A DNA stretch of 64,000 nt, taken from contig NC_089581.1 in NCBI RefSeq assembly GCF_019320115.1, positions 11,347,707-11,411,706 of the forward strand, written 5' to 3'. Source of the stretch: Miscanthus floridulus. Its lineage: Eukaryota > Streptophyta > Magnoliopsida > Poales > Poaceae. The position numbers and the translations under genes were made by a program. Within the stretch, counting starts at the first letter, position 1, and each line of letters opens with the position of its first letter. The notes under the pieces are model-generated. The model was not told where the DNA came from, did not search any database, and worked only from the letters and a program-made list of their open reading frames with translations. Shown piece after piece: positions 19,696-43,677 of this stretch.

Positions 19696-20554
19696 GAGCA
19701 ACTTCAGCAGTAGCCCTCAAATTAGAGCCCCCATTTTATATTTGGGTGTCTATCCCTATTTTTGTTGGTCCAAATTTGTGCTTCTACTCCAGCAGTAGCC
19801 TCAAAACGAAGGCCCCCCAAATCCATATTAGTAGACAATGACATAAGGGGCCCACTTGTCATTGGGTCAAATCTATCTTCTTCTCCTGAAATCCACCCCA
19901 CATACCATGACGCGTGCAGAACGAGCGCTCGCCTGTGCCGGCAGGGCTACGAGGGCCGAGCTCGTGCGGCCAAGCAGAGGGTACCGAGCCCGCACGGCGG
20001 AGTAGAGGGAGGGCCGCATGGCGGAGCAGCGGGCCCGCGCGCACATGGCGGCGGCGGAGGAGAAGGGGCCGACGCCGGGGAGGAAAGGTCGCAGACGCCA
20101 TGGCAGGGGGCGCGCGCTCGAGCTTGCGCATGCCCGGGTGGAGGAGAAGGGGCGCAGCGCGAAGGGGAGGAGCCGGCGAGCCCTCCGTCCCTGCCTTCCG
20201 TGGATCTGGTTGCACGGAGCTCGTCGGAGGAAGCCACCGGAGGGAGAGGAGCCGCGCCGCCGGTGCTCGATCTCGCTTCCGCGCGAGGGAGGAGAGGGAG
20301 TCGCGCCGCCGGTGCTCACTGCCGCACCGGGACACCGCGACGCTCGTCGGAGGAAGCCACCGGAGGGAGAGTTGCAGCGCCCACACGGATGGGGGCCGGT
20401 TTGTTGGCCCAACCAAAATGGGGTCTGGTGAGAGGATTTGGGTGCCCACATAAATTTGGGGTCCGTAGTAGGAGCCCTGCTGGAGTTGGATTTTTGACTT
20501 GAGCCCCCATATTTAGCTATAGGGGCTCAAGTAGGGATCTTGCTGGAGTTGCTC
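19696..20554. mobile_element. Non-autonomous Harbinger-like element with GC-rich core
   Basis: The ends are inverted repeats: GAGCAACTTCAGCAG at the left and, reverse-complemented, GAGCAACTCCAGCA at the right. They are flanked by TAA on both sides (19693-19695 and 20555-20557), a 3-bp duplication typical of PIF/Harbinger. Subterminal sequence is also inverted (CCCCATTTTATAT.. against ..ATATTTAGCTATAGGGG). The 859-bp element has a very GC-rich centre (19910-20400) with an internal repeat: TCGTCGGAGGAAGCCACCGG occurs at about 20220 and 20343. Long frames on both strands are a composition effect, and no transposase is present. Confidence 0.7.
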
Positions 20555-20557
20555 TAA

Positions 20558-21300
20558 TCGATCTAAAAAGTAGGATGTAAGGCTTGCTCTGATGCGCCTG
20601 CAGTTGCGTATCCATCGGCTGCAGTTGCGTCTCGTGGTCTCCATCGGGCAGTTGTGTTTCGTAGCCGTGAGAGGAGAGCAGGCACCCTGGCCAAGCGACG
20701 ACATGCAGCCTTGAGAAGAGAGGCACCCTGGCGGAGTGACTGCGACACCTGGCCCCACGACCGCCCCACAGCCGAGCGCATCCAATCCGTTGGTTAGAGA
20801 TGTCTTTGATCTCCCTTCCAGAACACATAACTGTAATTGTTGCTGATGAACAGTCAGCTTCTGAGTAATGCAAAGCTCCCTTAGTACTATAGAAGATTGC
20901 AAATAAAGCCCTACTTGATTGTTGTGGCCATTTTCCTTCTCCTTCCAAGGTGTATGTTAACCTATTTAATTTGGCAATTTATAAAGTTTATCATGATCAA
21001 ATAAAATTTATAAATGTAACCTTGTGTACAATTTAAATTCGTCAAAAGTCAAATCTCAAATCTCACAGAGCACATGCTAATCTATCTGGTGTACAACTTA
21101 CAAATTATCTGAATGAGTGCACCCTCCCGTTCTCCATTGGATTGAGGCGCCATCTACCACGTGCAGAGGAGGAGGTCAGGGAGGACATGGAACTGGGAGC
21201 TCGGACCAAGTTATCTGCACTGAGCAGCTCTTGCACAAGCTGTGGACCAAGTTGCAGCCACGCATGAACCATCTGACACCCCTACAGATGGCGCCATGGA
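20558..21300. other. Intergenic, nothing recognised
   Basis: Sequence between the Harbinger-like element and the first miR2118-type site. Minus-strand open frames at 20513-20948 overlap each other and resemble nothing I know. The part from 20950 to 21100 is AT-rich. Confidence 0.45.
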
Positions 21301-21323
21301 AATGAAGTGATGTGCTTTTCGTT

Positions 21324-21493
21324 GTCCTGATGCCCCTCGCTCCCAAAGAGATGCGCACACCATGGCTAGCACAGCATACCCAGGAATTATAGGACATGGA
21401 AACGAGGATGCATGTGTGTTCTTGTGGTAACCTAACTGCTCATGAGCGTTTGCTAGCTAGTAATCTTGACTTGTTTGTTTATATCATATATAT
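21324..21493 (-). ncRNA. Putative PHAS precursor 1: miR2118-type site 21324-21345 and TATA box
   Basis: The plus strand at 21324-21345 reads TCCTGATGCCCCTCGCTCCC, so a minus-strand transcript would pair with miR2118 (consensus TTCCTGATGCCTCTCATTCC) over most of its length with about five differences. A minus-strand TATA-like CATATATATG lies at 21484-21493. The 3' extent of the RNA cannot be read from sequence. It is the first of a same-orientation series reaching to about 35 kb. Confidence 0.4.
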
Positions 21494-21636
21494 GGACTCT
21501 CTTTCCTGGGGATGTGCTACGGCAAGAGATTGCACAATGCAAGCTGGTCGTTGCCTCTCTACTGTCAAAATATCTAGCTATACGACGAGATCGAGTTGGT
21601 GGGAAGACAAAATATGTTGCACATTCTCGTGGCCAT

Positions 21637-21765
21637 CTATATACAAGGGGCACTCAGCAACTCACACTGGAGGCTAACATGATATGCTGATATATACTGT
21701 ATTTATATACAAGGGGCACTCAGCAACTCACAAGGGGCAAATCATGTTAGCCTCTCCTGCTCATG
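21637..21765. repeat. Direct duplication with a nested inverted repeat
   Basis: ATATACAAGGGGCACTCAGC occurs twice about 65 bp apart. Between and after the copies, GGCTAACATGAT (about 21672) and ATCATGTTAGCC (about 21742) form a perfect 12-bp inverted repeat, so the stretch can fold into a stem with a loop of about 60 nt. Confidence 0.8.
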
Positions 21766-21907
21766 TCTAGATATCTCCAATCCTTCGTGTTAGGATCTGA
21801 ATCTTGTTAGCCCGGGAACACTGTATATATCAGGCATGAAAGAACCGCGTGTTCTCATCTCCTTCAACGGCAGCTCGGACTTTGCTCCGCTGTCTCATAT
21901 TTTTTTT

Positions 21908-22029
21908 TTCCTGATACCGCTCATTCCAAATCTAAACATATATACATTCCTCTCATACATCTGATAGATGTGGCCTCATTGTCGAGACAGGCATACTGAC
22001 CCAATGAACTTCAATGTTGTATATATATA
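21908..22029 (-). ncRNA. Putative PHAS precursor 2: miR2118-type site 21908-21929 and TATA box
   Basis: The plus strand carries CCTGATACCGCTCATTCC, a match to the miR2118 core with three differences in 22 nt, one of them a G:U-type change. A minus-strand TATATATA lies at 22021-22029, 92 bp upstream of the site. The leader between TATA and site (GTGGCCTCATTGTCGAGACA..) is related to those of the copies at 22948 and 26293. The expected cut would be between 21917 and 21918, setting a 21-nt register toward lower coordinates. Confidence 0.55.
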
Positions 22030-22947
22030 GAAAGAAAACTACTGCAGGATGAATGGAGTGAATAATAAACTAAAATGGGAAGAAATGGTTGCGTCCTTTT
22101 TTAGGTAGAGCTAGCGTGAAAGACATTACTGACAATAGAGCGAGTAGTACCCCTCCATGCATGGTGGCTCCAATCATTTTTTAATAAACTTACTTTTTTC
22201 AGAAAAAAGTCTTCAAGAATATATTTACTTTCAAGAATATATTGAGTTAAAATTCTTATTTTGAACATAGATTTCAGTGCAATTTCAGTAAACTAAATTA
22301 AACATTCATATAATTTGGCTAATTGTTCATCCGAAGTTTTTAAATTTCACTTTTCAAATGAAAATAGGGCATGCATCAATGACAAGAGTGTTGATAGAGC
22401 GGGGAAAATTAGTATGCTAGTGATAGTTCTCTTTCAGGGCATGAGCTAAATTAAAATGAACTTGAAAATAACTTAATTATGAACAAACACCTTAAAATAA
22501 CTACAAACTTCTGTAATTCTATTCTATTTTTCATTTTCCCTTATGTTCCTAAAAATCATTATTAGATGTTACTCATGAATGTGAATGTTTCACAAAGTGC
22601 GTGATATGTTATATCAACGGAGAGAACGCCAATTTCCTCTGATTCATTGATCTTTGCACTCTAATAATAATCCACTAATTGTGTGAGTGCGCATATTTAG
22701 CCTCAAACGATGCTCATTGTCGGGGAGGCAGCGCTGCGCAGTATGTCACCATATGGACATGGAGCTTCACGATGCAGATTTGGTGTCAGTAGTGCAGTAC
22801 AAAACGGCCTCGACAGCAGTGGTGATCACTCCCACTGTCTGACGTATCGCACGTGCCTTGCAGCTGGTGTCCACTAGGTTTCCCAGACGCCATGCACCTG
22901 TCGAAGTTCACCTTCAGGTCTTGGAATGTCTTCTTGCCGTATTTGTA

Positions 22948-23054
22948 TTCCTGGTACCGCTCATTCCAATTCCAGAACACACACTATCTGATATACGTGG
23001 TCTCATTTTCAAAACGTGTACTGAGCCACTTGTCACTGCAAGGTAGTTTATATA
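22948..23054 (-). ncRNA. Putative PHAS precursor 3: miR2118-type site 22948-22969 and TATA box
   Basis: The site reads CCTGGTACCGCTCATTCC on the plus strand. The minus-strand TATA box TATATAAA is at 23047-23054, 78 bp upstream. Sequence upstream of the TATA (AAACTAGCTAGCAGGATGAATAG on the plus strand) is shared with the copies at 21908 and 26293, so the promoter and leader were duplicated with the site. The open frame overlapping the site (22786-22980) is short and looks incidental. Confidence 0.55.
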
Positions 23055-23548
23055 GAGACGAAACTAGCTAGCAGGATGAATAGAGTAAGTAATGAAATGA
23101 AAAGGGGAGAAATTAAATGGCCAGCATGTCCTTTTTAGTTAGAGCTAAGCTAGCATATAAAAGAAAATACTTTAGAACTTGAACGTCCTTCTGCAATTAT
23201 TTTTCTTTTTTCTCATTTATCTTGTGTTCATCCGTAAGTGTCCATTTGGACTCTCCCTAGCTAGAGGTGTTTTGCAAAGAGCAAGAAGTGCTCTATTGAT
23301 GGAGGGCAAATGCCAATTTCACTTGTGCATTATTTTGTCGAATATGTGAGCGAGCCACGACGAGGTGACCATGGGTCCAAAGAGCATAAACTTCTTTGCA
23401 TGTCTGAGCAATCCATGAGAGGACAGAGGAGAACCTTGGATGACTTCGATGCCATCTCACCCAGAGGAAGAGACCATCCGTGCGTGCAATTACACAACAA
23501 TGGCACACATTGCCCGCGGAGCTAGCTGGCCGGGCTTTACAGCTCGTT

Positions 23549-23570
23549 TTTCCAACACCGCCCGTACCCT
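23549..23570 (-). ncRNA. Degenerate miR2118-type site 4
   Basis: TTTCCAACACCGCCCGTACC resembles the site at 23701 about 150 bp away and seems to be a local duplicate of it. Pairing to miR2118 would be weaker, and I see no TATA box upstream. Confidence 0.25.
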
Positions 23571-23700
23571 ATGCAATACTCGATCGCTCGACCACCTAGA
23601 TCTGCGTTAGCTCAGGCCTGGACCCTTGGTGGCAATGGCAGCCTATGTACTGCAGTTACAAAACATTTCCGACAAAGATGGCTACGCTGCAGAACTCGTT

Positions 23701-23823
23701 TTCCCAACACCACCCATTCCCATGCATGCTACACCGTTTCAGCTCTCCATGTCTCAGTCGATGTAAGCAGTCCATGAGGAAGCTTAGGAAAGGAAACCTC
23801 TCGTCCAAATTGAGAATATATAT
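23701..23823 (-). ncRNA. Putative PHAS precursor 5: miR2118-type site 23701-23722 and TATA box
   Basis: The plus strand reads TTCCCAACACCACCCATTCC, close to miR2118 variants that begin TTCCCAA. A minus-strand ATATATAT lies at 23816-23823, 94 bp upstream, the same spacing as in the copies at 21908 and 34840. Confidence 0.5.
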
Positions 23824-24152
23824 GGAGGCAATGCAAGGTCGGTTGTCTGTTACTACTATACATGGGGATATATGATCGAACAAGTTGGATGCGTTGCATA
23901 TATATGTGTGGGGTACTGGTAGGCTTGTGCCCATCTGTGGATGAAGTACATTTGCAAATAATGCTCTGCTGTGATGTGGCCGGCAAATTGCATTCAATCT
24001 ACCGGCTGCTGCCATGTGCCATGTGGCCATGCATGAGCCATGATTCGTCTCAAAAAGCTAAAAACAAAGAAAGAAGGAGAGAAAGAAACAAACAAACCGT
24101 GCACTAATGACAGCCCGTGGCAAATTAGGGCGTGATTGGTTACATGTATCTC

Positions 24153-24619
24153 TTTTTTTTTTTTTGAAAGGAGGATAAACCTCTGCTTTTAAGAAAGCAA
24201 GATCCGATACAATACTGGGAACACTAGTTTAACCAAAAGAACAAACAGAAGCTACACGCCTATAACAAGTTTCAGATTTCGATAACGTCAGTAGGCATCA
24301 CAGCACTACGCTTGAACCCTTTCAGCCATCCCATGATATCATCCTTGATCTTCTCCACAAGCTCCCTGTCCTTTTCCTTCAGCAAAATACACCACTTCTG
24401 CATGAAGGATAATGCAAGATACACAACATCAGTGGGAGCTTTAGGAAACTTTTTCTCGATCGCCATCTTATTCCTGGTGATCCATAGAGAGCCCAGGCGA
24501 AACCTGCAAAGGTAAACATGATCAGCTTGTTTGGGAGGGGCCCCTTGCCCTGTAACCAGGATTCAGAAAGCTCTTTCAGAGCCTTAGGCATAGAACCCCA
24601 GTCATAAATCTCCCACTGG
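24153..24619 (-). mobile_element. 5'-truncated LINE (L1-type) insertion, 3' end only
   Basis: A minus-strand insertion with a poly(A) tail (T-run at 24153-24165 on the plus strand) carries the C-terminal end of an L1-type ORF2 product (GFAWALYG.. in one frame, then MAIEKKFPKAPTDVVYLALS in another). It is flanked by a near-perfect 12-bp target duplication: TACATGTATCTC (24141-24152) and TACATGTAGCTC (24620-24631). A frameshift separates the two coding pieces. It is a typical dead-on-arrival LINE copy inside the site cluster. Confidence 0.85.
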
Positions 24620-24639
24620 TACATGTAGCTCCATTGTGC

Positions 24640-25220
24640 CCAGGCTCAATATATGCAAGTTCGATTTATTTGGTTGCTTGGTCCACAGGTTCCGATCATG
24701 CAGCTGTATGTACAACTCGAGCTGGAAACGCAGGAGAGTCCCGTTTCTCGTGCGCCAAGCTCAGCAAATGCAACCATGAGCATGCACGCGCAGTTAATAC
24801 GCATATAAGTCTACCTGCTTTGCACAGGCTACCAAACAATATAATGTCTCAAATGAACCTGGCCTTATGTATGCAAAAATCCAAACACTAGCACCTACTG
24901 CCATGCATGGGCAATGTCGTGGCACATGTCCCCACAGCTAGTGGCTGAAGGTGATGTGCTACTAGGAGGTGTAGAGCAACATGCACACCCACGTCAAAAT
25001 ACCAGGCTATATATGTGGTGTTGGAAATTTGCAATCCATTTGTACATCTGGCGAGAGCTTGGAGTCCCCGCGTGCTATGAGAGGCATGACAGTGTGATCG
25101 ATGCCACCGGTACCATGGGAACCGGTTATTGGGTGCGTTTGTTCAGCCACCGATCCCTGATGGCCACGCCCACACATGTGACTGTTGTTAGCTCGGCTTA
25201 ACCCAGGGAACTAAACTTGC
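24640..25220. other. Non-coding sequence within the site cluster
   Basis: No protein gene recognised. If the neighbouring site at 25234 is active, this lies downstream on the minus strand and would be the body of its phasiRNA precursor. Confidence 0.35.
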
Positions 25221-25233
25221 TCCAGAATATGAT

Positions 25234-25330
25234 TTCCTAATTCCGCCCATTCCCAATTAAGCAACAACATTCTTTCCATCTCCATTCTCTCGAGTGGTTC
25301 ATCTCTTGGTTAGCTATGAAAATATAATAT
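25234..25330 (-). ncRNA. Putative PHAS precursor 6: miR2118-type site 25234-25255
   Basis: The plus strand reads TTCCTAATTCCGCCCATTCC, retaining the 3' CCCATTCC core of miR2118 variants. The only promoter-like signal is an AT-rich ATATTATATT (minus strand, 25321-25330), weaker than in the other copies. Confidence 0.4.
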
Positions 25331-26292
25331 GCGTGTCTAGCAAAGCTCTAGCATATATGCTGCATTTTCAGGCAAGATCCAAGAATCCAAGTAACAGTAC
25401 TACAACGACACATGCGAGTGTATAGTGGACAGCAAGGCGGAGAGATGGTGGATACCTTACATTATTATACTTGTATCACACAATAACATTGAAGGTCTCC
25501 TAGTTTTAATGGGTGCTCTCTCGCCCATCTTCATCTCGATATATATGCATGTCTTCATCTGATAGGACTGCCACAGTACACACGGTTGGATATGCTTCCA
25601 GCTGGAAACAGGTCAAGAGCTCAGTAGTACTAAAACTCAAATTAATAATTATCAGAGAACAGGCGTGTTTAGTTGGTTTCGAATCTGCGTCACTCCATTC
25701 GGAGACAATTATGGCAGCACATACGTACAGCATGTAGCCTCATCCAATGCAAAGGATGCAGTGCCCGTCATGCATCTCGGTGGAAGAATACTCGAGGTGG
25801 AGACTGTAGGGATCGGAGTCATGTTTGATAAACATAGGTGATGCTCTCATCTTTTAATCAGGTACAACAAGTGCATATTGCAGATTATTCCTCCTCTATC
25901 GTTAATTTCTTCACTTGTTCGTCAAAGTGCGTGTGATACAAATAAAAGAACCATTATATTAATTACTCCAGTCTCTACGGCAAAGTGCAATTTGTCCACG
26001 CACATGCTCCATGACAAAGTCCCTCAGACAGTAGTGCTGAACGCCAAATGCGTGTTTCATTGGAGGGCCTGAGGGTCCTGAGCTACCTGCAAGGTTGCTA
26101 AGGCCCGCCTAGGAAGAAGGGCGTCCAGTCCATTGGATGCAGAGGGTACCGTACAGCATGTGCAATATGAGGGCCTCTGCGTTCTTTCAGATCTGTGTGT
26201 CCGAGAGGTGGAGAAGCTCCCAAGTGACTTGCAGCGCGCCAGCTGTAAGGTTCCCTCCACGAGTCATGCACAAGGTTCTTGTCATGTTTGCT

Positions 26293-26435
26293 TTTCTGAT
26301 ACCGCTCATTCCAAACCACGACACAAATATGCAAAATCCTCACATATAGACAATGCAAGTACATGATGTGGGCGTTTCAAAATCTACAATGCCATGCACT
26401 TCGGTGAAATCAAAGTTAAATCGATCGTATATATA
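26293..26435 (-). ncRNA. Putative PHAS precursor 7: miR2118-type site 26293-26314 and TATA box
   Basis: The site core CTGATACCGCTCATTCC is identical to that at 21908. Minus-strand TATATATA is at 26428-26435, 114 bp upstream. The flank beyond the TATA (GAACTAGTAGGTTGAATA.. and AAAGGGGAGAAATGGCCAGG) matches the copies at 21908 and 22948, showing descent from a common promoter-leader-site unit. Confidence 0.55.
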
Positions 26436-26439
26436 GAAC

Positions 26440-27560
26440 TAGTAGGTTGAATATATTGAGTGAGTATTCAACCAAAAATAAAGGGGAGAAATGGCCAGGT
26501 CGTCCTTTTTAGATACAGCATTAAAGATTCGGTATGATGGAGGATGTACTATCCGTTGCTTGATCCATTAATGTAAGTGTCTAAAATTTCTTTTGAATAC
26601 AGATTTTGGCGCAATTCTTGTACACTAGGTTAAACATGTACATGTACAATTTGACCAATTGTTGATGAAATTAAACATCAAAAGTTATGGACTTTATTTG
26701 ACGTTTCAAATCAAAACAGTGAAACACGGTTTAATGCTACTGTTGTCACATCCGGCCCAGTTTGAAATTTGTCCCATAGTGACCCATGTGCATGTTAATG
26801 AGATGTTGTGAAGGGTTTAGTCTCACCTTAGTTGTTTATGATAGGTTAAACCAACATATAAGGCTTCTAGAGTCCATCCCACCATCCGCCAGTTAACCCT
26901 TTTACGCGAAGCAAGGACGAAAGAGTAAGTGGGATGGTGGTAGGTGTGGTTCACTCACCGTGTAGAGTGAATCTGAGCCATTTGGACTCTGGGGCGTAAC
27001 ATCTGTCATTTAGATTTAGAAGAGGCAACCACCGCAAAAAGAGAGAAAATACTTATGAACCTCTTTTTGCATTACGTACTTCTATCATTTTTCCTTTTTA
27101 TTTCTTTTTGTGTTGCTCATGATATGTACTAGATGGACTCTCCCTAGGTACAAGTGTTTTGCAAAGAGCATAAAGTGGTCTACCCGCTTATCGCCATGAT
27201 GAGGTGACGATGGACTAGCCACATGTATCTTATCCATCAAGGTTCTACTATGAAACACCAAGGGGCCATCTGATGGCTCTCTGAATTCAATGACTTGCAT
27301 TGGATGCCATCTCGCCCACCCATGAAGTGCCTTGGATGCCGTCTTGCCCACCCATGAAGTGCCTTGGATGCCGTCTCGCCCACCCAATGACTTGGATTCC
27401 GTCTCTGAATTCAATGAATTGGACCTCGAATTACTGAAATGATATCGGACATGGAAATAGAACTCCAGTTCCATGCATGTTCTCTCGTTTGGTTGTGTAA
27501 AGGGAAATCCTTGAAATGATATCAGATCAAAATCAATGTGCCACCGCACCTGCCATATTA
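26440..27560. other. Non-coding sequence with a 32-bp tandem repeat
   Basis: No gene recognised. At about 27303-27390 the unit GGATGCCATCTCGCCCACCC (start of a roughly 32-bp unit that also contains ATGAAGTGCCTT) is repeated three times. The block around 27131-27175 (ACTCTCCCTAGGTACAAGTG) has a diverged copy at 23250-23290, so this region and the one around 23.3 kb are segmental duplicates. The 154-residue minus-strand frame over it is partly made of this repeat and is unlikely to be a gene. Confidence 0.5.
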
Positions 27561-27574
27561 CTGAAGGGACGTTT

Positions 27575-29235
27575 GGATCCCCTCGCTTTCGACATGGTTA
27601 AATAAATTTGGTCAGAAGCACAAGGTGGACATACTCCTTTAGAAAAATGGCAGGCCAAGATTCACAGGGTTCGCCAATTTCTAAGGGGTTGGGCTAAAAA
27701 TATAAGCGCTACCAATAAAAAAGAAAAGAGACAGCTGCTTGACAAATTAAATATGCTAGATAAGAAAGTGGAAAATTCTCCACTCGATCAGGATGAATTG
27801 AACTTAAAGCATGTAATGAATGAAAGGTTGGCAGATTTATTGAGAGAAGAATAATTAAAATGGTACCAAAGAGCGGAAGTTAAAAACCTGTTAGAAGGCG
27901 ATGCCAATACTAAATACTTCCACTTGGTTGCCAATGGAAAACATAGGAAGTCTCGTGTCTTCCGGTTAGAGCAGGAGGAGGGTTTGATTCAAGGCGAAAA
28001 AGAGCTAAGAGAATATATAACAAAATATTACAAAAAGCTTTTTGGTCCATCGAAAAGTATTCCTATGTCCTTAGACGAATCTCGTTGTGATGATATCCCT
28101 GAAGTCTCTATATAGGAAAATGAAATGTTAGTAGCACAGTTCTCAGAGGAAGAGAATAAAGAAGCGATTTTCCAAATGAAACATAATACAACACCAGGGC
28201 CAGATGGTTTCCCGGCAGAGTTTTATCAAGTCTTTTGGAATGTTATAAAGGAGGACTTGATGGCTCTATTTAGGGAATTCCACAAGGGATCTTTGGCGCT
28301 CAACTCATTAAATTTTGGAACAATTATTCTCCTCCCAAAAAGTAAAGAAGCTAACCAGATACAGCAGTACAGACCTATATGTCTGCTTAATGTTAGCTTC
28401 AAAAAATTTTACCGAAGTGCTTACTAACAGGATCACCAAGGTAGCCAAAAAAATTATCAAACCATCGCAAACAACTTTTCTACCTGGTCGAAACATCATG
28501 GACGGGGCAATTATTTTACACGAGACTATCCATGAATTACACACTAAGAAAAAAGATGGTATTGTTTTTAAAATTGACTTTGAAAAGGCCTATGATAAAG
28601 TTAATTGGGATTTTTTACAAGTATGTTTAAGAATGAAGGGTTTTGACCCGATCTGGTGTAATTGGATTAGCAAAGTAGTCCATGGTGGAAATGTTTCTAT
28701 TAAAGTGAATGATGATTTGGGGCCCAATTTCCAGACCAAGAAAGGCCTTAGGCAGGGTGATCCTTTATCTCCTATTTATTTAATATTGTAGTGGATATGT
28801 TGGCTATCATTCTGAATAGGGCCAAACAGGACAATTTAATAAGGGGAGTAATTCCACACTTAATAGAAGAGGGTATGTCTATCTTACAATATGCAGATGA
28901 CACGGTTATATTTCTGGACCATGATTTAGAACTAGCAAAGAACATGAAATTGTTGCTTTGTGTGTGTTTTGAGCAATTGTCTGGTCTAAAAGTTAACTTC
29001 CACAAAAGTGAAATCTTCTGTTTTGGTCAAGCAAAGGATTGTGAGATACAGTATTCGCAGCACTTTGGTTGCAAAATTGGTGCTTTTCCCTTTAAATATC
29101 AGGGCATCCCAGTGCACTATAGAAAATTTTAGAATAGAGATTGGAAGCAAGTCGAGGAGAGATTTGAGAAAAACTAAGTAGCTGGAAAGGAAAATTACTC
29201 TCTTCAGGAGGGAGACTTGTGCTGATTAATTTCCA
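27575..29235 (+). mobile_element. LINE (L1-type) fragment with reverse transcriptase
   Basis: Broken plus-strand coding sequence shows the middle of an L1-type ORF2 product: EGDANTKYFHLVANGKHRK (about 27895-27950), the RT start NTTPGPDGFPAEFYQ (28187), motif A KIDFEKAYDKVNW (28571-28609), GLRQGDPLSPI (28748-28780) and the YADD box LQYADDTVIF (about 28886-28915). Stops at 27854 and 28113, a frame change near 28400 and another near 28790 kill it. Both the endonuclease end and the 3' end are missing, since sequence similarity stops near 29235 in mid-domain. No target duplication was found. Confidence 0.9.
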
Positions 29236-29880
29236 AAAAAAAGATCACTTGTATAAGAGAAAAAGTAAAAACTGCACAGTTCTAGGCGAGTTCCATCAAC
29301 AGTAGATCGGTAAAACAGGCATATCTCGAGTTCCAGACATCATTCAAAGACGTTCTTTACATGGTTGGAAAGCTTAAGAAATTCTCTACAACTTTCGTGT
29401 AGAACACTTTTCACACTCTGTCATCAAGTTAATAAAAAACGGAGCGCAACCCAAACTGTTCTGGACTCCAGACAGCGCCCAACCTCAGCTTGCAAAAGTT
29501 ATATCTCCCAAACCATAATTGATAAAAATGTAATTCCAGTGGGATTTGAAAGATAAATAAGTCTAGTCATCTCCATAAAATTTTCACGATTTTTGGTCGT
29601 ACGGATAATGAGTTATATGATAAAGAATATAGACTACTCCAGAAAACAGAAACAGTAGAGACAGATAAAGCAACCTCAACTATATTATTCATCAACTCAA
29701 ACTTATGGTTCTTAAATATGGGATTTGTGGACATGCCCACAATCTCCCAACAATCATGAAAACTCCAAATCAACCAATTTCACAAGCACAAGCAACTAAG
29801 CAAATAAATTCTCACAAGACACACAATGACTCGACTCAACTCGCAACTAACATCGTTTTTATTATAAAAGTGGCATCATA
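29236..29880. other. Unrecognised non-coding repeat-like sequence
   Basis: AT-rich text such as GGTTGGAAAGCTTAAGAAATTCTC and CAACTTTCGTGTAGAACACT looks like dispersed grass repeat sequence. I could not assign it to a class and see no ORF. Confidence 0.4.
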
Positions 29881-29883
29881 ACT

Positions 29884-30761
29884 CTAAGGGGCGGTGTCGA
29901 TGACGGTAAACTCCGGGGGCTTCTTCTCATAGAGCGGGGGCAATCCAAGCTAAGCTCTCAGGGCATCATTCTCCTTTTGGAAAAGCTTCGCGGTCCTCTG
30001 CGCCTCATGTACCTCTTCTTTGAGGTCTTCATTCTCCATTTGCATCACGTGAATGCGTCCAAGGTGGGGTCACTATTTTGGGGATTTTGAATCACCCAAG
30101 TCCCATCATTTGGATCATGGCGAGGAAGGAACCTGAAGCGATTCTCCTTCATGGCCTCATATTGTCGACCATGATAGTGGATGTAGGCCTCCTAAGCTGC
30201 GTCCTCCATACTATCCATCGCCTGAGCCCATCTTGATGTGTGGGTATGAACAGTTTCCACCTTCTAGCTATCACCGGCTTCATTCCAAACTATGATGGAC
30301 AGATTTGTCTTCCAGTACGTGGCCTCCAAGGGGTGCGTATGCTCAGCACAGTAATATGTGATGGTGGCATTGATGTCCGGGTAGTAGTCTTCTAGCACGT
30401 TGAGGAGCAGCGAATGGTAGTAGGCCGTGTCTAAAGCATACTTGAAGTGGTACGTGCGGGTCCAACCCGGACCATCCTCCACCTCTAGAGCAGTTGGTGC
30501 TGGCACCTATACCGCCTCTTCGGGAAGTGGCTCAGGCACTGGTGTCGGAACTAGTGTAGGAGCTAGTGAGGCGATCCACTCCTTTTCATCTTCCTCGGTG
30601 AAGTCCTCCACAAGCATGGGGTCCTCCTCAAGCACTGGGACCTCCTCGTCATCTGAGATGACCACGATCTACTCCTCCCGTGGCGCCGGGGGTGCAAACA
30701 GAGCACGCGTTGGGTAGTAGCCTCCAGTGCTGATGCGAGCCGTCTTCTTGGCATGAGGCAT
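29884..30761 (-). pseudogene. Broken transposon-associated ORF with histone-H3-tail-like N-terminus
   Basis: From the ATG at 30761 one minus-strand frame runs with four or more in-frame stops, plus a frame change near 30060, to a stop at 29884. The protein begins MPHAKKTARISTGG, strikingly like the histone H3 N-terminal tail (K-Q-T-A-R-K-S-T-G-G), with Ile at the Lys9 position. It is followed by an acidic Pro/Glu-rich stretch (ISDDEEVPVLEEDPM), a conserved-looking block (WTRTYHFKYALDTAYYHS) and a C-terminal coiled-coil-like part (ENEDLKEEVHEAQRTAKLFQ). I do not recognise the family with certainty. ORFs of this style in grasses are usually part of transposable elements. Confidence 0.55.
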
Positions 30762-31154
30762 CTATAGATTTAGATTAAGATGAATTAGAAATAATGAATT
30801 TTAATAATGGAATAAAGTTAAAGAAGCATAATAATTTTTTAGCAAATAACAAGACTACTTCAGGTTGCTATCAAATTGTATGTCCCACACTCCCACTGCA
30901 ACGCATGAGCATGTTTGCAAGTTTATTATAAAATGTAAACTGAAGTGTCCCAAAAGCTACGTCTAAATAACTAATAACCATAAATTGTACTATATATGTT
31001 GCTACATTACCCGAATCTGCCAGTATCGTTATTGCAAATCACAATAGTGACATGGATGTCCATATACATGCACCGATATATATTCGCTCCTGGCTCCTAT
31101 GGATGAACGCACACAACCTGCCTAAATTATGAACACCTCTAAAAGACTGAACCA

Positions 31155-32305
31155 CACTAGTACACAAAGTTTAACCGCGATGGGCGGATCTAGTTTTCAG
31201 CGGCGGGCAACTGCGTCCGCCACGCCCAGATCATCACGGTAAATCAAGATTTACCATGACGGACCCCAGTTGCCCGCCGCGGTAAACGTAAAAAAAACAA
31301 AAAAAACAGCGAGCCCAACGCAAGCCCATCTAGGCCCGGCGTCGAGCCCATCCGCCGCTGCATCGCCGTGCCTGCGCCGCCACGCCGCTGCACCTCCACC
31401 GCCATCGCCAGATCCGCGGCGACAACGGATCCGCGGGCCCCGAGGCCAGATCCGTCGGATGACGCGTCGTCGGACGCTTGGAGAAGGAGGGGCCGGGCCC
31501 AGCCGCCATGGAAGAAGGCCGTCGCACGTTGGGAGAAGGAGGATGCGCCGCCACCTTCGATCCGCCACTGGATCCGCGGGCCCTAAGGCCAAATCCGTCG
31601 GAGGACGCGCCGCCGGTCGCCGGTGACCACTTCGCCGGGAGGAGGGGGCCGGAGCCGCCGGAGACCCGGCCCGCGCGCGCCACGTGTACCGTGCTCCGCC
31701 TTGCGAGCCGCAGCGCTCCGCCTCACGCACCGCTCTGGCTCGCGCGCCGCGCCGCAGCGCTCCGCCCTTGCTCTCCGCGCCTCCCGCATCGCGCCGCCGG
31801 CTTCCATGGCTGTGCTCGGAGTTGGGGAGACAGAGAAAGATAGAGGGCGCCGTGGGGAGAGAGGTGGAGGGGCGGTGCTCGGAGTTGGGGGGAGACAGAG
31901 AGATAGAGGGCGCCGTCGCTCTCGGCTGCTGTGAGGGAGTTGGGTGAGATTGAGGGAACCTAAGTTTGCCCTTATATATAAACCCGGTAGGGGCTGTGCC
32001 TGGGCTCCGAACTGGGCCAAAAGTTTTAGGAGGCGGGCCCTTAAGGATGCCCGCCACGGTAAATCTATTTACCGTGGCGGACGTCTTAATATGCCCGCCG
32101 CGGAAAATAGGGCATTTTCCGTGGCGGACGTCTTAGGACGCCCGCCACGGTAAATTGATTTACCGTGGCAGACAGAAATGTCCGCTTCGGTAAATGAAAA
32201 ATGTCCGCCTTGGAAAATCCTGGGATTAACCGTGACGGGCAAAAAAATGTGCCCGCCTCGGAAGGGTCCAAAGGGGTGTCATGCAAAATCATTTATGTAG
32301 TAGTG
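31155..32305. mobile_element. Complete non-autonomous CACTA element
   Basis: The left end is CACTAGTACACAAAG. The right end, reverse-complemented, begins CACTACTACATAAA. CCA flanks both sides (31152-31154 and 32306-32308), the 3-bp duplication expected for CACTA. Subterminal palindromes of the form GCCCGCCACGGTAAAT..ATTTACCGTGGCGG occur at both ends (about 31190-31285 and 32040-32250). The core (31330-31950) is very GC-rich, with overlapping open frames on both strands and a minus-strand TATA-like TTTATATATAAG near 31970. No transposase is encoded. Its subterminal motif differs from that of the large CACTA element, so it belongs to another family. Confidence 0.85.
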
Positions 32306-32308
32306 CCA

Positions 32309-32967
32309 ATGCAAAACAGATCTCACAGGCGTCTCATTAGATTGTCAATGGGCACGTCGCATATCACTAAAAGAATAGTGTCCCGGAAAATCATAGAGCT
32401 GAATGTCTCAATCCTTCCGGAGCACAACTAATATGTTGAAGTTCTAATAAGATGACCCCACCCCTCGTGACGCTGCTGCACGCTAGCTGACTGTGTCCCA
32501 GAGCGTGTGGCCACCATATCTCCAAGGACATGCTCCTGTTTGCTATTCAGCTCCACCGTGATCAATGGTTTGTCTGCCAGCCGGCTCGGCACAACCACAC
32601 ATATTTGACGTTTGCATGCAGATTGGCAAAGTATAGGCGGCACCTCGTGCCCTAATAATAAGGCAAGAGTTGTATCTGTGTCATTGGAATTCCCTGTGAT
32701 GTTGGGGTACAGCTTGTTGATATGAACGTACTGGCATGGGACACATGGATGTGGAACGAGTACGAGCTGCAGAAAAATGGTCTTGGTTAGGTCTTTCGTC
32801 TCGTTGTTCAGGAGTCCGGACGGTGCACCAGGCACATGAAACACGCCACCATTTCTTACATGTTTATGCCCATCTCGAGCTATGTATAGTTCCACATCCC
32901 TATCCTGGTGCGTGGAGCAGTGGACCCTGCAGTGGCTGAGCTGGGAGCATCCACTGTGATGGGGATC
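32309..32967. other. Non-coding sequence, related to 33860-33990
   Basis: The block CATTTCTTACATGTTTATGCCC at about 32850 recurs near 33868 together with flanking sequence (..CATTCCTAT.. and ..GAGCATCCAC..GTGA), so this is a diverged duplicate of the body of the precursor unit at 34002. The 187-residue minus-strand frame here (32428-32991) overlaps a degenerate miR2118-type site and has no recognisable domain; I do not call it a gene. Confidence 0.45.
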
Positions 32968-32990
32968 TGCTGACACCTCACACATCAGCA
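32968..32990 (-). ncRNA. Degenerate miR2118-type site 8
   Basis: TGCTGACACCTCACACATCAGC occupies the position that, by alignment with the duplicated block at 33860-34030, corresponds to the site at 34002. The CCCATTCC end has decayed, so pairing to miR2118 would be poor. Confidence 0.25.
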
Positions 32991-33144
32991 ATTGTGACCT
33001 ACTCCTTCTGTCCCCATTTTAGAGTCGTCGTAGCTGTGCTTCTAGCTGTCCCCATTCAAAGCATTATGCATGCATCTAGGGGAGCTTCCATCCAAATTCA
33101 AGGAATCTTGCATGTACCTGAGCGAAGGCTAAAACGACTCTTTG

Positions 33145-33386
33145 GGCCTCGTTTAGATGCTGAAAAAATTTCAAACTGATGAATAGTACCACTTTCGTCT
33201 TATTTGATAAATATTGTCCAATCGTGGACCAACTAGGCTCAAAAGATTCATCTCGTGATTTCCAACTAAACTGTGTAATTAGTTATTTTTTTACCTACAT
33301 TTAATACTCCATGCAAGCGGCTAAAAATTGATGTAATGGAGAGAGAGTGAAAAAACTTGGAATTTTGGTGGCATCTAAACAAGGCC
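33145..33386. mobile_element. MITE with GGCCTCGTTTAGATGC inverted ends
   Basis: The left end GGCCTCGTTTAGATGC is the reverse complement of the right end GCATCTAAACAAGGCC apart from one base. The flanks are TTG on both sides (33142-33144 and 33387-33389). The 242-bp element contains the sequence CATTTAATACTCCATGCA, which I associate with an abundant panicoid-grass MITE family. It sits 15 bp from the miR2118-type site at 33401. Confidence 0.75.
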
Positions 33387-33400
33387 TTGGTATATATGTT

Positions 33401-33483
33401 CTCCTGATACATCTCATTCCGAAGCTAATGAGGATAAAATATGTAATACATGTGCCATCCTTGGGATTGCAGTAGTTATATAA
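33401..33483 (-). ncRNA. Putative PHAS precursor 9: miR2118-type site 33401-33422 and TATA box
   Basis: The plus strand reads CTCCTGATACATCTCATTCC, keeping both ends of the miR2118 core. Minus-strand TTATATAA is at 33476-33483, 54 bp upstream, the shortest spacing in the set. A MITE (33145-33386) is inserted 15 bp downstream of the site on the minus strand and would be included in the transcript. Confidence 0.5.
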
Positions 33484-34001
33484 TCTACTATACCAAAGAA
33501 GTGAACATGTCATCGTAGCACTTCTATTGTTTCATTATTTTGAGATAAAATAAAGTGGGACAGCAGAGATAAACAAATTATTGTTTCTGACGATTTCTCA
33601 CATACTGAAATTAATTATTGTTATCAGACAATGTGCGTGAGAAAGACTGAGAGTGAGAGATCGCAACATGATCCTATGGCCGGTCAAAGCAGACCAATGT
33701 AGTTGGTAAATGATAGTATAAACTTGCTACAGTACATGTATTGTACATATGCCATCCTTATTTGAGAAACATTCGAGGACGCGTGTGTTGTCATCATTTT
33801 GATGAGGGAGGGCAAAGAAAAAAGCAGTTTATGCAAGACAGCTTCATGGTCGGCTCATGCATAGCAGCTATTTCTTACATGTTTATGCCCTGTTCCGAGC
33901 TCTATGTTTGTACCACATTCCTATTTTTGCATGTTGAACATGACACTGAGCATCCACCATGACCGGGAGCTGCTGTGGCCTCAATAGTGGTGAAATACAT
34001 T

Positions 34002-34023
34002 CCCCTGATACCTCCCATTCCCA
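34002..34023 (-). ncRNA. Putative PHAS precursor 10: miR2118-type site 34002-34023
   Basis: CCCCTGATACCTCCCATTCC on the plus strand is one of the best matches to rice-type miR2118 (..CCTGATGCCTCCCATTCC): the differences are at the 5' end and one G:U-compatible change. No TATA box was seen within 150 bp upstream on the minus strand. Confidence 0.5.
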
Positions 34024-34839
34024 AGCTAATGACGTGCATATGCTCATGCGTGTAGTTTTGCAGGGGAAAATTACGCAATAGACAACTAGGGAGTGAAGGA
34101 CGACCACGCACGCAATTTCAAGAGATATGGAACGTCTCAAAGTAACTCAACTAAGCCCACGTTCATTCTAGTGGTAGTTACAGGAAAGCAAATATATAAG
34201 TGAGCTTGTCATTGTACTCCTCACTTTCTTTTAGATCAATGTGCAACAACCGACACAAATAAATTATTGTATCAGACAATAATTTGTCTGTGAAGGTGAG
34301 GTGTCGATCGGAACATGAAACACTTGCAGCTGCACTGAAAATTATAGAAAAGTGTATAAAAGTGTATCTCAGAAACGTCAAATTTATAATGGTATGAATC
34401 TAATTAACCCATAAATCAATAGCCCCTTTCTATTTTGATGTTCACCACCCCTGTGGAATACATTTTTTTTGTTGCTAATTAGCCTCTCCGGCTCATGCTT
34501 CATTAAGAGGAGATTAGAGTTTTGTTATATGACTCATACCATTCAGACTCCCCTAGGAATTATGATTGTTGCACCGCAGAGAAGTCGAATCGTATGCACG
34601 ACCATGAAACGGCATTTTACTTTGTACAATTACACGGTCGAGCTTTTGCAACCAAAACATAAATAAAGCTATCCTGGGGAGTGGCGACCAAGGAAGCGAC
34701 ACGCGAAGCAGGCGAGGTACAGTCGCACAAAGGCTGAGATCTGCTGCATGACAGTGCATGGGTCAACATCTTGGGGGGAGCTGCGCGGAGCAGCCTACAG
34801 CTGTCCAGCAGGGGGCCTGAGGCCAACCAAGTCAAATTG

Positions 34840-34965
34840 CTCCTGATGCATCTCATTCCAAAGCTAGTGGGTTTGCTGCTGCTGCTGCTGCATATAAAAG
34901 ATGCAAATATATAAAGAGCTTGAGTCTATCAAGTGAGCCCAGCAGGATACTAGTACTTATATATA
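34840..34965 (-). ncRNA. Putative PHAS precursor 11: miR2118-type site 34840-34861 and TATA box
   Basis: The plus strand reads CTCCTGATGCATCTCATTCC. Minus-strand TATATATA at 34958-34965 lies 97 bp upstream. The nearby AGCAGGAT sequence recalls the promoter flank of copies 2 and 3. A (CTG)5 tract lies in the leader (about 34875-34891). Confidence 0.55.
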
Positions 34966-35052
34966 GCAAAGAAATTATCTTAGTTGCAGCTGTTTATGAG
35001 CACTATATGTTACGTAAGTTTTCGCGCGGCACGTGCTACGAGTGAGAGGGTA

Positions 35053-35195
35053 TGTTCGGCTTATCTCATATTCGGCTCGTTCGGCTTGTTTTCTCAGCTG
35101 GAACAATATTTTTCTCTCACAACAATTTAATTAGAACAGTGTTTTTCAGTCAGTTTCAGTCAAGTTTCAGACCGACGAACGGGACCAAAGTGGTT
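35053..35195. mobile_element. Degenerate MITE-like sequence
   Basis: Text such as TTCGGCTTGTTTTCTCAGCTG, CAATATTTTTCTCTCACAAC and the right-hand ACGAACGGGAC resembles a dispersed grass MITE family with TGTTCGGCT-type ends. The ends are decayed and no target duplication is evident. Confidence 0.35.
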
Positions 35196-35432
35196 TTATG
35201 GTTTAGGTTGTTAGCTTCTTGGATTTTTTACTTGTTGTCACTTCATGTGGAGGGCCTCAATCTCGCCCACCACACTTGGAGCTTGGGCATGTTATCCCCA
35301 TAATTGGGGCGAACTTGAAGTCTGCAGCATGACATCAGTGGAGTAGGCGAATGTCAAATCATAGTACTATGTTGGAATTCCTTCCTCTACGCAAGATGAT
35401 GGGCCGTGCCCCATTGGACACCTTTCTGCGCT

Positions 35433-35454
35433 ATGACCAATACCGCCCATGAAT
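35433..35454 (-). ncRNA. Degenerate miR2118-type site 12
   Basis: ATGACCAATACCGCCCATGA has the CCGCCCAT core and spacing of the other sites but a poor 3' end. No TATA box was found. It is the last recognisable member of the series. Confidence 0.22.
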
Positions 35455-35839
35455 GCATTACTCCACACAAAAAAAAACATCATATATTATCGGAGTGTGC
35501 AACCGCCGCTCTCTCCCTCTTTCTCCCATGGCTCAGCTGCCATTGTGCTCTACATCCCACAATGATGACCTGGATAAGATTTCCAATGTTCATGCCCACC
35601 ACACCTTCAAGGTGCTCGTCTTCCTTGTCTCCATGGAAAGCTCGAAGGAGATAGGATAAGCAGAGGATGGGTGATGTGAACAAAGAAGAGTTGGCTGGCG
35701 GGTTGGTAGGAGGATGGGTGGTCAGCTGATCCAGCAGCGGTTGCTGATTCTTTTTTTTTTTTGACGTTAAGTGGTTGCTGATTTTGTTAGGAGTGGGGAG
35801 CAGGTAACGCTGACACTACTGGCCAAAACATATCTATAA

Positions 35840-36128
35840 GACTATCTCCAACAACAACACCTAAAATACAAGATTCATTTAATGTTTGGGTAGCGCTACA
35901 GTCGAATGGTTCAATACCTATTCGACATCATCTCCAACAACATGACCCAAAAGAGAATCCTTTCAGCAAATGAGTTTTCAAGAGATATGATACTCATATT
36001 TGGGTTGTGCCTCTCAGACAACCTAAAATGGGTCTCCCGTATAGGTACTCTCTTAGAGGCTGATTTTAGGTCTCCTGCTACCCATTTTAGGTTTAGATGC
36101 CCATATAGATCATCTGTTGGAGACAGTC
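35840..36128. mobile_element. Short Harbinger-like MITE
   Basis: The left end GACTATCTCCAACA and the right end TGTTGGAGACAGTC are near-complementary, flanked by TAA on both sides (35837-35839 and 36129-36131). It is 289 bp, without coding capacity. An internal second CATCTCCAACAACA sequence suggests a partial end duplication. Confidence 0.7.
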
Positions 36129-36296
36129 TAACAAGACTTTCATCAGGTACATGTATAGACAAAACACTAGTATTGATTGTCTTTCATTGCTATGGCAAAC
36201 ATGTTATGATCGATATATATTGTCTCTGTACATGCATGACTTTGTCTCCCTCTCTAGTAGTAGCTAGAAAATCTTTTAAGCATACATAATTATTAT

Positions 36297-36785
36297 TTAA
36301 AAAGGAAAGCGACGCCCCACCGGCCAGGCGGCCAGGCGTGGACGGGGCTCGCCGCGCTTGGTAAGGTGAGGCCCCCCCTCGGCGTCGGGCAAGCTCGTGA
36401 AATCCACATCCAGTAGGGTGAACGATGTCCCTCTGCGCATGCAGCGATCCACGATGACGCACCTCGCCATACAGAAGGTGCCGTTGCCAAGATATGTGAG
36501 GCTCATCATTTCACCGTCTGGGACGCCGTTCCCGTGCTCCGTAGGAGACTTCCACACATGCCGCACCACACTGGTGGGCGGTGCTCCTTCTGGGCCTCGA
36601 CGACATCAATGGCGCACACCTGGTGGCAGTGGCTAGAGTCATAGCTGGGGACTAGGCCAACAGCGCAGCCGAGCTCCTCAACGAAGAAGGCGCAGTGCGA
36701 GAGGAGCGGCAGCTGCCAGCTTCCCTCCACCCGCCACGCGCACGCGCTTGAGAACAAGTCCAAGGAGAAGGTGCCCCTTTCCCAC
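36297..36785 (-). pseudogene. DUF1618-type protein gene, 3' fragment (interrupted by Gypsy element 2)
   Basis: On the minus strand, starting at the retroelement's target duplication (36781-36785), the sequence codes for WERGTFSLDLFSSACAW.. and SHCAFFVEELGCAVGLV. After a one-base frameshift near 36570 it continues RHVWKSP.. and LTYLGNGTFCMAR. These runs match the layout of grass DUF1618 proteins (GTYSFDT-like block, then LGNGRFC-like block). The reading frame from the 5' fragment at 50339-50658 joins exactly onto this one when the element and one copy of the 5-bp duplication are removed. The frameshift shows that the gene has decayed independently of the insertion. The function of DUF1618 proteins is unknown. 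Confidence 0.75.
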
Positions 36786-37616: not shown

Positions 37617-40600
37617 ATGGCAGGGAAAAGAAAGACCACCACCAGAGCAGCAGTGACCACGGGTCAGCGAGAAAGGCCTAGGCGCAACATTCGTAGCGCC
37701 TACGCAACCTCGCCAGCAGAGGACGACACCAGAGCAGATGCCCAGGGTCAACCACCGGAACCCCAAGATCCTGAGATTCAAGATTCGGAGGCCTAACCAA
37801 ACTCATCCATAACACCCGAGCAAGAACTGCAACAGCTGCAAGCACAGTTGCAAAGAGCGCAACAAGAGAGGGACAGAATGGCAGCAGCATTCGCAGCTAA
37901 TCAGCAAGCTGTTCAAGCGTCAGCACAAGCAGCAGAAATAAGGCAGCAGTTGGCAGTCCTACATGCTGAGATGCTAAGTATGCAGCATGCAGTACCGGCG
38001 ACAACCTCCGCAATCCCAGCCTCCGCAGCAACACCAACTGCAACCATGCTTCAAGGTCCTACGCCAGTGATCAGCCAGCCGACGATGCCATCTCAGGTGA
38101 TGCGGAGGCCTATCGATCCCAAGTCCCCACTATCTAAAGGCATACAACAGTCGCCATGGCCAACAGCGTACAAGCCAATCACACTACCAAAGTTCAACAG
38201 AAAAACTGACCCCCATCAGTTCATTATAAGTTACGAGGCAGCAGTAGCCTCCGCCGGCGGAGACAACGCCGTCTTGGCAAAGTCATTTGTCATTGCAGCC
38301 GAAGGCGACGCGCTGGCTTGGTATTCTATGCTCAAACCAAGTACAGTCTATTCTTGGGAGAACCTCCGAGACAAGATATTGGCAAACTTCAAGGGGCTAA
38401 CAGCACAGTCGCTGACTTCCACAGATCTGTTCCAGTGCAAGCAAATGCAGGGAGAGACACTACACGACTACTTCCGAAAATTCGTGCAACTAATGGCGAA
38501 GGCACCAGACGTCCCAGACGAGATCGCCATCGAAGCAGCGATCAAAGGTCTCTGAATTGGGTCGTTCGCAGCACACCTAGCAAGAAAGAAACCAACTTCC
38601 ATACAACAGTTGTATGACGAGTTCGAGAAGTACTGCAGATCAGACAATGACCTCCGCAAAAGGCTGGAGGAGCAATGATAAAACAGACAACAAAACAGCA
38701 GCAAAAATTCCCAGAAAACATATACCAACCAGAATGTATCAAATCAGAAGCCAGGCCAGGGGCAAGTGCTCAGCATCGAGGGTCAACCTCACCCCGAGCA
38801 AGGGCAACAGGCAGCGCCAACACGGCCGGAGACCTAGACAAGGAACCAAGGTCGGCAAGGTTACCAAGGCAAAAACTGGAACAGAAACCAAAGCCAGAAA
38901 CAACACAGGCCATATTGCGTTTTTCACGGCGAAAATACAGGGCACAGCACCAAAGATTGTCCGGAGACAAAAGAAACACAGGAAAGAATGAAGAACAAGC
39001 AGACTGCCCAACCTTCAACACAGCAGAGCGCAAGAGAGGTCAACACCACCTACACAACTGGCCACCAGCAGTACTGCCCAATGTACCCAGCGCTAAACGC
39101 AACCCAAATACATCCCTCCACACTGGCCTCTGCCTATTACCCAAACTTCCTACCAGCATGGCGGTCATCACCTTCGCAGCAGCCTCCGCCGAGAAACTAC
39201 AGGTCGGAGGCAAGCCTGACCTACATAAACCCAAAATCTCCCCATATAACCTACCTCGAAAGAAACCCATCGGAACAAAACCGAATAAGGTTCAAGCCTC
39301 CGCCACCACAGCACCACATGCAGCAATTACCTCCGCCACCACCTCACAACCCACCCCCAACGCCAAAAAACGAGCCAAACCCAGAAAACCAAGTCAACCC
39401 TCATGGAGCACTGCCAACAATAGGCATGATATTGCCAATCGCCGGAGGATCATCAATGGAGTTTCAAACTAAAAAGCAGAAAAAAGATCACCTCCGCCTG
39501 GTAAACAATGTAGCAGTCCAAGGCCCGGTGAAACACTCAGATTGGTCCAGAGTCCCAATCACCTTCACAGAAGAAGATCTCCAGCTAGAGAGCTACCCTC
39601 ACGCAGACGCAATGGTGATCAAGACCAACATAGCAGCATGGGAGATAAGCAGAATATTGATCGACACTGGCAGTTCAGCAGATATCATCTTCGCAAATAC
39701 CTTTGACCAAATGAAGCTCAGCAGAAATCAACTTCAGCCCTCCGAATCCCCTTTAATAGGATTCGGAGGCAAGCAGATACAAGCATTAGGAAAAATCTCA
39801 CTCCCAGTGTCGTTCGGAACCCAAGCGAATGCCAGAACCTAGTACATAACCTTCGACGTCGTCGATCTGTATTACCCATACAATGCCATCTTGGGCAGAG
39901 GATTGACAACCAAATTCAATGCAGCCCTGCATATGGCCTACCTATGCATGAAAATACCAGCACTCCATGGTATTATCACAGTCCGAGGTAGCCAGAAAGA
40001 AGCAAGAAACATAGAGAAAGCTATCTACAGAGCCCAAAGAAACATCAATGCAGTTGAGTCAGCGAACAAAGAACTAGAGCCTCCGAACATGCCCAAAGGA
40101 GAAACAGATATGGTAGGTCAAGAAGAGACAAAGCTGATCCCTCTAGAAAAAGAGTTACCAGATAGAAAAGTAACAATCAGCTCAAAATTGTGCAAGGCAG
40201 AAGAGAAAGAGCTCATGGTAACCCTAGTAAAAAACAAGGACATCTTCGCCTGGTCAGCCTCCGACCTCCAGGGAGTCAGCAGGGACATCATACAGCACGA
40301 ACTGGATATCAATGAAAACATGAGACCAAGAAAGCAGAAACAGAGAAAAATGTCGGAGGACAGAATCCTGGCAGCAAAGGCGGAGGTGCAAAGATTGCTA
40401 GATGCAAAAGTGATCAGGGAAGTCAAGTATTCAGAATGGCTTGCAAACGTAGTCTTGGTACCAAAGAAAAATGGCAAAATGAGAATGTGCATAGATTTCA
40501 CAGATCTGAATAAAGCTTGCAAGAAAGACCCTTTCCCATTGCCAAGAATAGATGCCTCCGTCGACAAGGCAGCTAGATGCCAGAGGTTCTCTCTCCTTGA

Positions 40601-43334: not shown

Positions 43335-43677
43335 GCAATGTACCAAAGGGCAACCTCTGCAAAATATAAGCGGAGGCCCCTCCATGCATTTACCTTAGTT
43401 TTTTTACTTCAACCAAAACCAAATGTAAAAGAGCCTGCACTCTTTTCCTCACAGGGGAACTCCAAGCGGAGGTGAGGTTTTTAATGAGGTAGGCTCAATG
43501 TAAAAATCCTCTACAAGTATAAAGAGGTAATTCCCCAAAAGAATGCCCTAAAAACCCAAAACCGAAAGCGGCCAGCTCTGGCGCCGTAATATTCGGTAAA
43601 CAAAAACTAAACGTCCTTTCAAAGCGCCAGCCATAGGCAAGGGCAATTTGAAACAACCTTTATGGCCAAACAGGCCT

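Follow-up and report, generated by a model that had tools for sequence, protein, structure and literature searches.

The closest described relatives of the locus analyzed here are the reproductive loci of grasses (rice, maize and wheat) that give rise to 21-nucleotide (nt) phased small interfering RNAs (phasiRNAs), the 21-PHAS loci, which are clustered and non-coding, have bodies that are little conserved and carry, close to one of their ends, a miR2118 motif of 22 nt (PMC4788661, PMC7305157, PMC11127045, PMC7057497). Published grass 21-PHAS loci lie in clusters or superclusters (PMC4788661), a motif matching miR2118 is enriched in those of Zea (PMC11127045), and in rice miR2118 and its 21-nt phasiRNAs are required for fertility (PMC7305157). 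We analyzed a stretch of 64,000 nt of Miscanthus floridulus (contig NC_089581.1, positions 11,347,707 to 11,411,706; the window), in which nine 22-mers complementary to miR2118 are spread over 13.5 kb in all. These probably mark, at a rough probability of 0.85, about nine distinct non-coding 21-PHAS units that are clustered on the minus strand. None of the sequence analyses presented below contradicts membership of this grass class.

Every 20-mer on both strands of the window was scored over 20 nt for complementarity to miR2118, with mismatches doubled at microRNA (miRNA) nt 2-13 and G:U pairs counted as half; three miR2118 sequences seen in print were used for the main scan, and a wider set of six added three that were not taken from print. 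Exactly nine places scored 5 or less with the printed sequences, and these are the nine sites that a preliminary description of this DNA had placed, in a single orientation, at the same coordinates. Forty Markov shuffles of the window yielded an expectation of 0.125 such places over both strands (0.175 with the six-sequence set). The next-best places, at 9102 and 50482, score 6.5, a level at which about one place is expected (0.4 at 6 or less and 1.55 at 7 or less). The plus strand resembles miR2118 itself at 9/9 sites, which has a probability of 0.004 if the two orientations are equally likely, and because the orientation is shared, the would-be target is an RNA of the minus strand.

On that strand, site 1 is located at 21324..21345 (predicted cut 21333/21334; score 3.5; 17 Watson-Crick pairs, 3 G:U pairs and 2 mismatches), site 2 at 21908..21929 (predicted cut 21917/21918; score 3.0; mismatch at nt 12), site 3 at 22948..22969 (predicted cut 22957/22958; score 5.0; mismatches at nt 7 and 12) and site 4 at 23701..23722 (predicted cut 23710/23711; score 5.0), the latter being of a different type that is discussed below. 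Site 5 is found at 25234..25255 (predicted cut 25243/25244; score 5.0) and site 6 at 26293..26314 (predicted cut 26302/26303; score 5.0; mismatches at nt 3 and 12). They are followed by site 7 at 33401..33422 (predicted cut 33410/33411; score 3.5; mismatch at nt 11), site 8 at 34002..34023 (predicted cut 34011/34012; score 2.5; 4 G:U pairs and no mismatch) and site 9 at 34840..34861 (predicted cut 34849/34850; score 2.5; mismatch at nt 11). Taking for each site the best of the six miR2118 sequences, of which three came from print, pairing comprises 17-19 Watson-Crick pairs, 1-4 G:U pairs and 0-3 mismatches.

A matrix was also built from the sites, and its leave-one-out scores were compared with the best scores of 10 shuffled windows, for which the full matrix was used. 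The shuffled windows reached 8.7-14.9, whereas seven sites scored 26.4-34.2, site 23701 scored 17.1 and site 21324 scored 14.9. The three weaker copies that had been proposed in addition do not rise above chance level by target score and matrix: the one at 23549 has a target score of 9.0 and a matrix score of 11.7, that at 32968 has a target score of 7.5 (at 32967), and that at 35433 appears in neither the target-score nor the matrix list.

When the minus-strand sequences are anchored at the sites, 18 of the 22 columns inside the 22-mer exceed the 99% level of the null, versus 9 of the 120 flanking columns (60 nt on each side), none of which carries more than 1.24 bits. About one flanking column would be expected at this level, and the excess fits the family kinship of the upstream DNA described below. 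For the set as a whole, then, the earlier proposal that the 22-mer is kept while its flanks diverge holds, but not within two families of sites, in which upstream DNA is held in common. Position 1 is a T in 9/9 sites; this base lies opposite A22 at the 3' end of the miRNA, outside the 20 nt that were scored. The 22-mer of site 3 (22948-22969) is identical at 19/22 positions to OSsRNA-4, a rice 22-nt trigger of phasiRNAs listed as novel in Table 1 of PMC7847607; our guess would be that OSsRNA-4 is an unrecognised relative of miR2118.

A TATA-like box 50-200 nt upstream is present on the minus side of 9/9 sites and on the plus side of 1/9, while the fraction at random positions is 0.23-0.25. When the set of sites was shifted circularly within 20500-36500, nine boxes were reached in 0.0009 of 2283 shifts. 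All on the minus strand, the boxes of sites 1 to 4 are located at 21485..21493 (148 nt upstream), 22022..22030 (101 nt), 23047..23055 (86 nt) and 23815..23823 (101 nt); that of site 5, at 25319..25327 (72 nt), is weak; and those of sites 6 to 9 are located at 26428..26436 (122 nt), 33475..33483 (61 nt), 34191..34199 (176 nt) and 34958..34966 (105 nt). Such boxes on the minus side predict transcription from high to low coordinates, which would place each site near the 5' end of its transcript. Among 892 published grass loci, the miR2118 motif lies near one end in 529 (PMC4788661).

A plus strand that reads like miR2118 at every site could also mean that the array consists of tandem MIR2118 miRNA genes on that strand. 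The nine sites do resemble the MIR2118 cluster of rice chromosome 4 in being a one-orientation array of miR2118-like 22-mers at a spacing of about 1 kb, and in rice 14 MIR2118 loci with a similar spacing lie within a 16-kb deletion (PMC7305157). The difference is that no hairpins were found here and that the TATA-like boxes favour the minus strand, the opposite of the one on which MIR2118 genes would have to lie. In a duplex test covering 300 nt on each side of the nine sites and both strands, no pairing arm stood clearly above shuffled flanks (the lowest value was 6/100 in 36 tests). When mock arms were tested, those carrying 3 or 4 substitutions were flagged in 9/9 trials, those with 5 in 6/9 (3/9 missed) and those with 6 in 3/9 (6/9 missed), and because detection falls at 5-6 substitutions, poorly paired arms could escape this test. 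Minimum-energy folds of the plus strand paired 11-18 bases of the 22-mer to one arm, within the 6-20 obtained at 40 random positions. On the minus strand of 23701, 20/22 bases were paired to one arm, a value that the null, built from 40 places on the plus strand only, also reaches, and the duplex test detected nothing at 23701. A miRNA precursor would hold the 22-mer in one arm of a stem-loop, and no such structure was seen at any of the nine sites by tests that could miss arms carrying 5-6 substitutions. Similarly, no Rfam family matched any of the nine sites at its gathering score, and the six matches in the window at E<=10 are all located off the sites. A cluster of MIR2118 hairpins was therefore rejected by the duplex, fold and Rfam tests, and we regard this explanation as extremely improbable.

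The other well-known targets of miR482/2118 are genes of the nucleotide-binding site-leucine-rich repeat (NBS-LRR, or NLR) type, and the sites might be relics of such genes that retained only the target within the P-loop. The preliminary description had stated that the sites do not encode an NBS-LRR P-loop. This is incorrect for 23701, whose minus strand encodes GMGGVGKTS and whose 22-mer is identical at 20/22 positions to a rice NLR target printed in Table 2 of PMC10675396; site 25234 also matches a printed NLR target, at 18/22 positions. The likeness to miR482/2118-targeted NBS-LRR genes goes no further, since no NB-ARC coding sequence was found around the sites. The P-loop frame at 23701 is open for 18 codons and lacks NB-ARC flanks, and at the remaining seven sites identity to the three printed NLR targets is limited to 13-16/22 positions. 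When 12 read-through frames over 20900-26601 and 32900-35601 were compared with Pfam, NB-ARC was absent from the matches of all 12 frames and no match exceeded its cut-off, the two at E 0.045 and 0.11 being far below theirs. None of the 45 listed open reading frames of at least 150 amino acids overlaps a site either, in line with the earlier view that the sites lie outside recognised coding frames. NBS-LRR relics were accordingly rejected on the Pfam results, save for the P-loop at 23701, where no NLR gene was found, and as an account of the cluster they appear very unlikely. We also noted a second P-loop-like stretch about 150 nt below 23701, at 23540-23570, where the weaker copy 23549 lies; it reads GTGGVGKTS directly after a stop codon, followed by the same AAAACGAG.

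The DNA upstream of the sites was compared in segments of 300 nt, for which 99% of random pairs have a local score of at most 34 and 99% of shuffled pairs of at most 37. Three sites form a family (family A; 21908, 22948 and 26293) whose upstream DNA is mutually related, with local scores of 132, 79 and 72, and two sites form a second one (family B; 33401 and 34002), with a local score of 62. The related blocks, all read on the minus strand, are located at 21930..22189 for site 2 (local scores of 132 and 79 with 22948 and 26293, respectively), 22970..23221 for site 3 and 26315..26579 for site 6 in family A, and at 33423..33682 for site 7 (local score 62 with 34002) and 34024..34287 for site 8 in family B. 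Because identities in global alignments had no discriminating power, shuffle z-scores were used in their place. For family A these are 13.2, 9.1 and 7.1 upstream versus 0.2, -1.5 and 3.3 downstream. Borderline local scores of 35-36, between the two controls, were obtained for the upstream pairs 21324/23701 and 25234/34002 and for the downstream pair 23701/25234. With segments of 400 nt, for which the 99% control is 38, 4/36 upstream pairs exceeded the control and 0/36 pairs of site-anchored bodies did so. Profiles of both upstream families detected no further copy of a block in the window, and their other matches were weak and mostly on the sites. Farther upstream, the stretches 23183-23295 and 27074-27182 are related at 74.6%. 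In addition, 32-nt tandem repeats occur at 27290-27386, with a relative at 23445-23463.

The bodies were also compared, as 400-nt segments, with the whole region 20500-36500. The body of 34002 matches the stretch 32831-32980 with a score of 86, whereas the other eight bodies score 35-48; 25 random pieces of the region score 32-125. The part of the unit 8 body that has this relative is located at 33852..33983, and the relative itself, at 32831..32980, is likewise on the minus strand. This relative ends 18 nt before the position where a site would be expected, and no good site is present there; the weaker copy 32968 overlaps the edge of the stretch. It follows from this copy that bodies can be copied too. 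The units would be explained most simply by local duplication, after which the copies ceased to resemble one another. Alternatively, what is copied could be a cassette of about 250-400 nt, made up of promoter and trigger, that landed beside unrelated DNA, in which case the bodies would have been recruited rather than have drifted slowly, and 23701 would be a relic from the descent of the cassettes from NLR genes. The copying of a body at 32831-32980 makes this less likely, and we consider it doubtful.

Taken as 21-PHAS units, the nine sites would function as follows, the steps beyond the presence of a site being modelled on the published pathway (PMC7305157, PMC11127045, PMC5825165). RNA polymerase II would start slightly upstream of each site, and a 22-nt miRNA of the miR2118 family would direct cleavage between nt 10 and 11 (at 21917/21918 in site 2). 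In pre-meiotic anthers the 3' fragment, extending toward lower coordinates, would be converted into double-stranded RNA, which DCL4 would process into 21-nt phasiRNAs. Local duplication would account at least in part for the origin of the units, and most of the siRNA-producing bodies would since have lost their likeness to their sisters. Three traits of 21-PHAS loci are seen in the window: a miR2118-complementary site of 22 nt, non-coding surroundings, and clustering with bodies that are poorly conserved. The proposal of the preliminary description, miR2118-triggered non-coding loci in a cluster, is supported by the nine sites found where 0.125 were expected, by the lack of hairpins and of coding domains, and by the boxes on the minus side. 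Rice 24-PHAS loci, which are triggered by miR2275, are similar in being clustered and non-coding and in having a 22-mer trigger site in their 5' region (PMC5825165), but the trigger differs; the place in the window that most resembles miR2275, at 29156, shows 4 differences from the miR2275 sequences used.

Several observations weigh against this interpretation. By the leave-one-out matrix, site 21324 is a borderline case despite its target score of 3.5. The alignment of the sites had already been seen when the TATA matrix was written, so that the result on the boxes may be partly hindsight, and narrower distances reduce the count to 8/9 (60-160 nt) or 6/9 (80-160 nt), with 1/9 on the plus side in each case. 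In family B, global alignment indicates only a weak kinship of the upstream DNA (z 2.6). A composition proxy for a 21-nt register starting at the predicted cuts gave a null result, register 0 ranking 3rd-16th of 21 in twelve tests, although the power of this proxy was judged to be low. Finally, nt 12 of the miRNA is mismatched at 5/9 sites (21908, 22948, 23701, 25234 and 26293), and nt 11 of the known miR2118 sequences, which adjoins the cut, is mismatched at 33401 and 34840. A mismatch at nt 11 should weaken the slicing of these two sites by the known forms of miR2118, so that either the species has matching variants of miR2118 or 33401 and 34840 are weak targets.

The mismatches at nt 11 and 12 would also be expected if the units had been active in an ancestor and are now decayed or silent, with several sites poorly cut or promoters silenced. 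The interval 26314-33401 between sites 6 and 7, where part of a reverse transcriptase and a long inverted repeat are found, and the siteless relative of a body at 32831-32980 point in the same direction. Decay, on the other hand, would erase the contrast between the 22-mers and their flanks (18/22 versus 9/120 columns), and TATA-like boxes have been kept at 9/9 sites, and we therefore regard decayed or silent units as unlikely and favour a cluster of 21-PHAS units. With these elements between sites 6 and 7, a single cluster appears to have been split by insertions. The long inverted repeat, at 32024-32174, weakly matches the Rfam families MIR1883 with 59.3 bits (128 needed) and MIR1319 with 39.8 bits (116.6 needed), and is possibly a transposon end.

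Elsewhere in the window, a gene for PsaF is located at 17753-18454 on the minus strand. Its best sequence match in the PDB is chain 5zji_F, from which the transit peptide differs; we take 5zji to be a maize structure, and the match suggests a grass related to maize. The frames 1311-2378 (minus strand) and 39891-41300 (plus strand) encode largely the same protein on opposite strands, the second with a reverse transcriptase domain; they are probably two copies of one retrotransposon, presumably of the gypsy type. A further reverse transcriptase frame is found at 60380-60919, and we assume the frames at 52753-55589 to be copia-like. The frame 43548-44165 (minus strand) is a succession of repeats, each about 23 residues long, for example MPDFGQVFVKGRRPLWPKENLAL.

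In other respects, the cluster is a probable ordinary example of a well-known class. Its interest for specialists may lie in the shared upstream blocks, in the presence of an NLR-type site among the nine and in the recurrent mismatches at nt 11 and 12. Blocks shared within sub-families of units were not found in any 21-PHAS report in the literature searched, which included few subscription papers. The recurrent mismatches predict that Miscanthus floridulus has variant members of the miR2118 family, and the cluster as a whole offers a small test case for how the number of 21-PHAS loci grows and what makes their bodies so variable.

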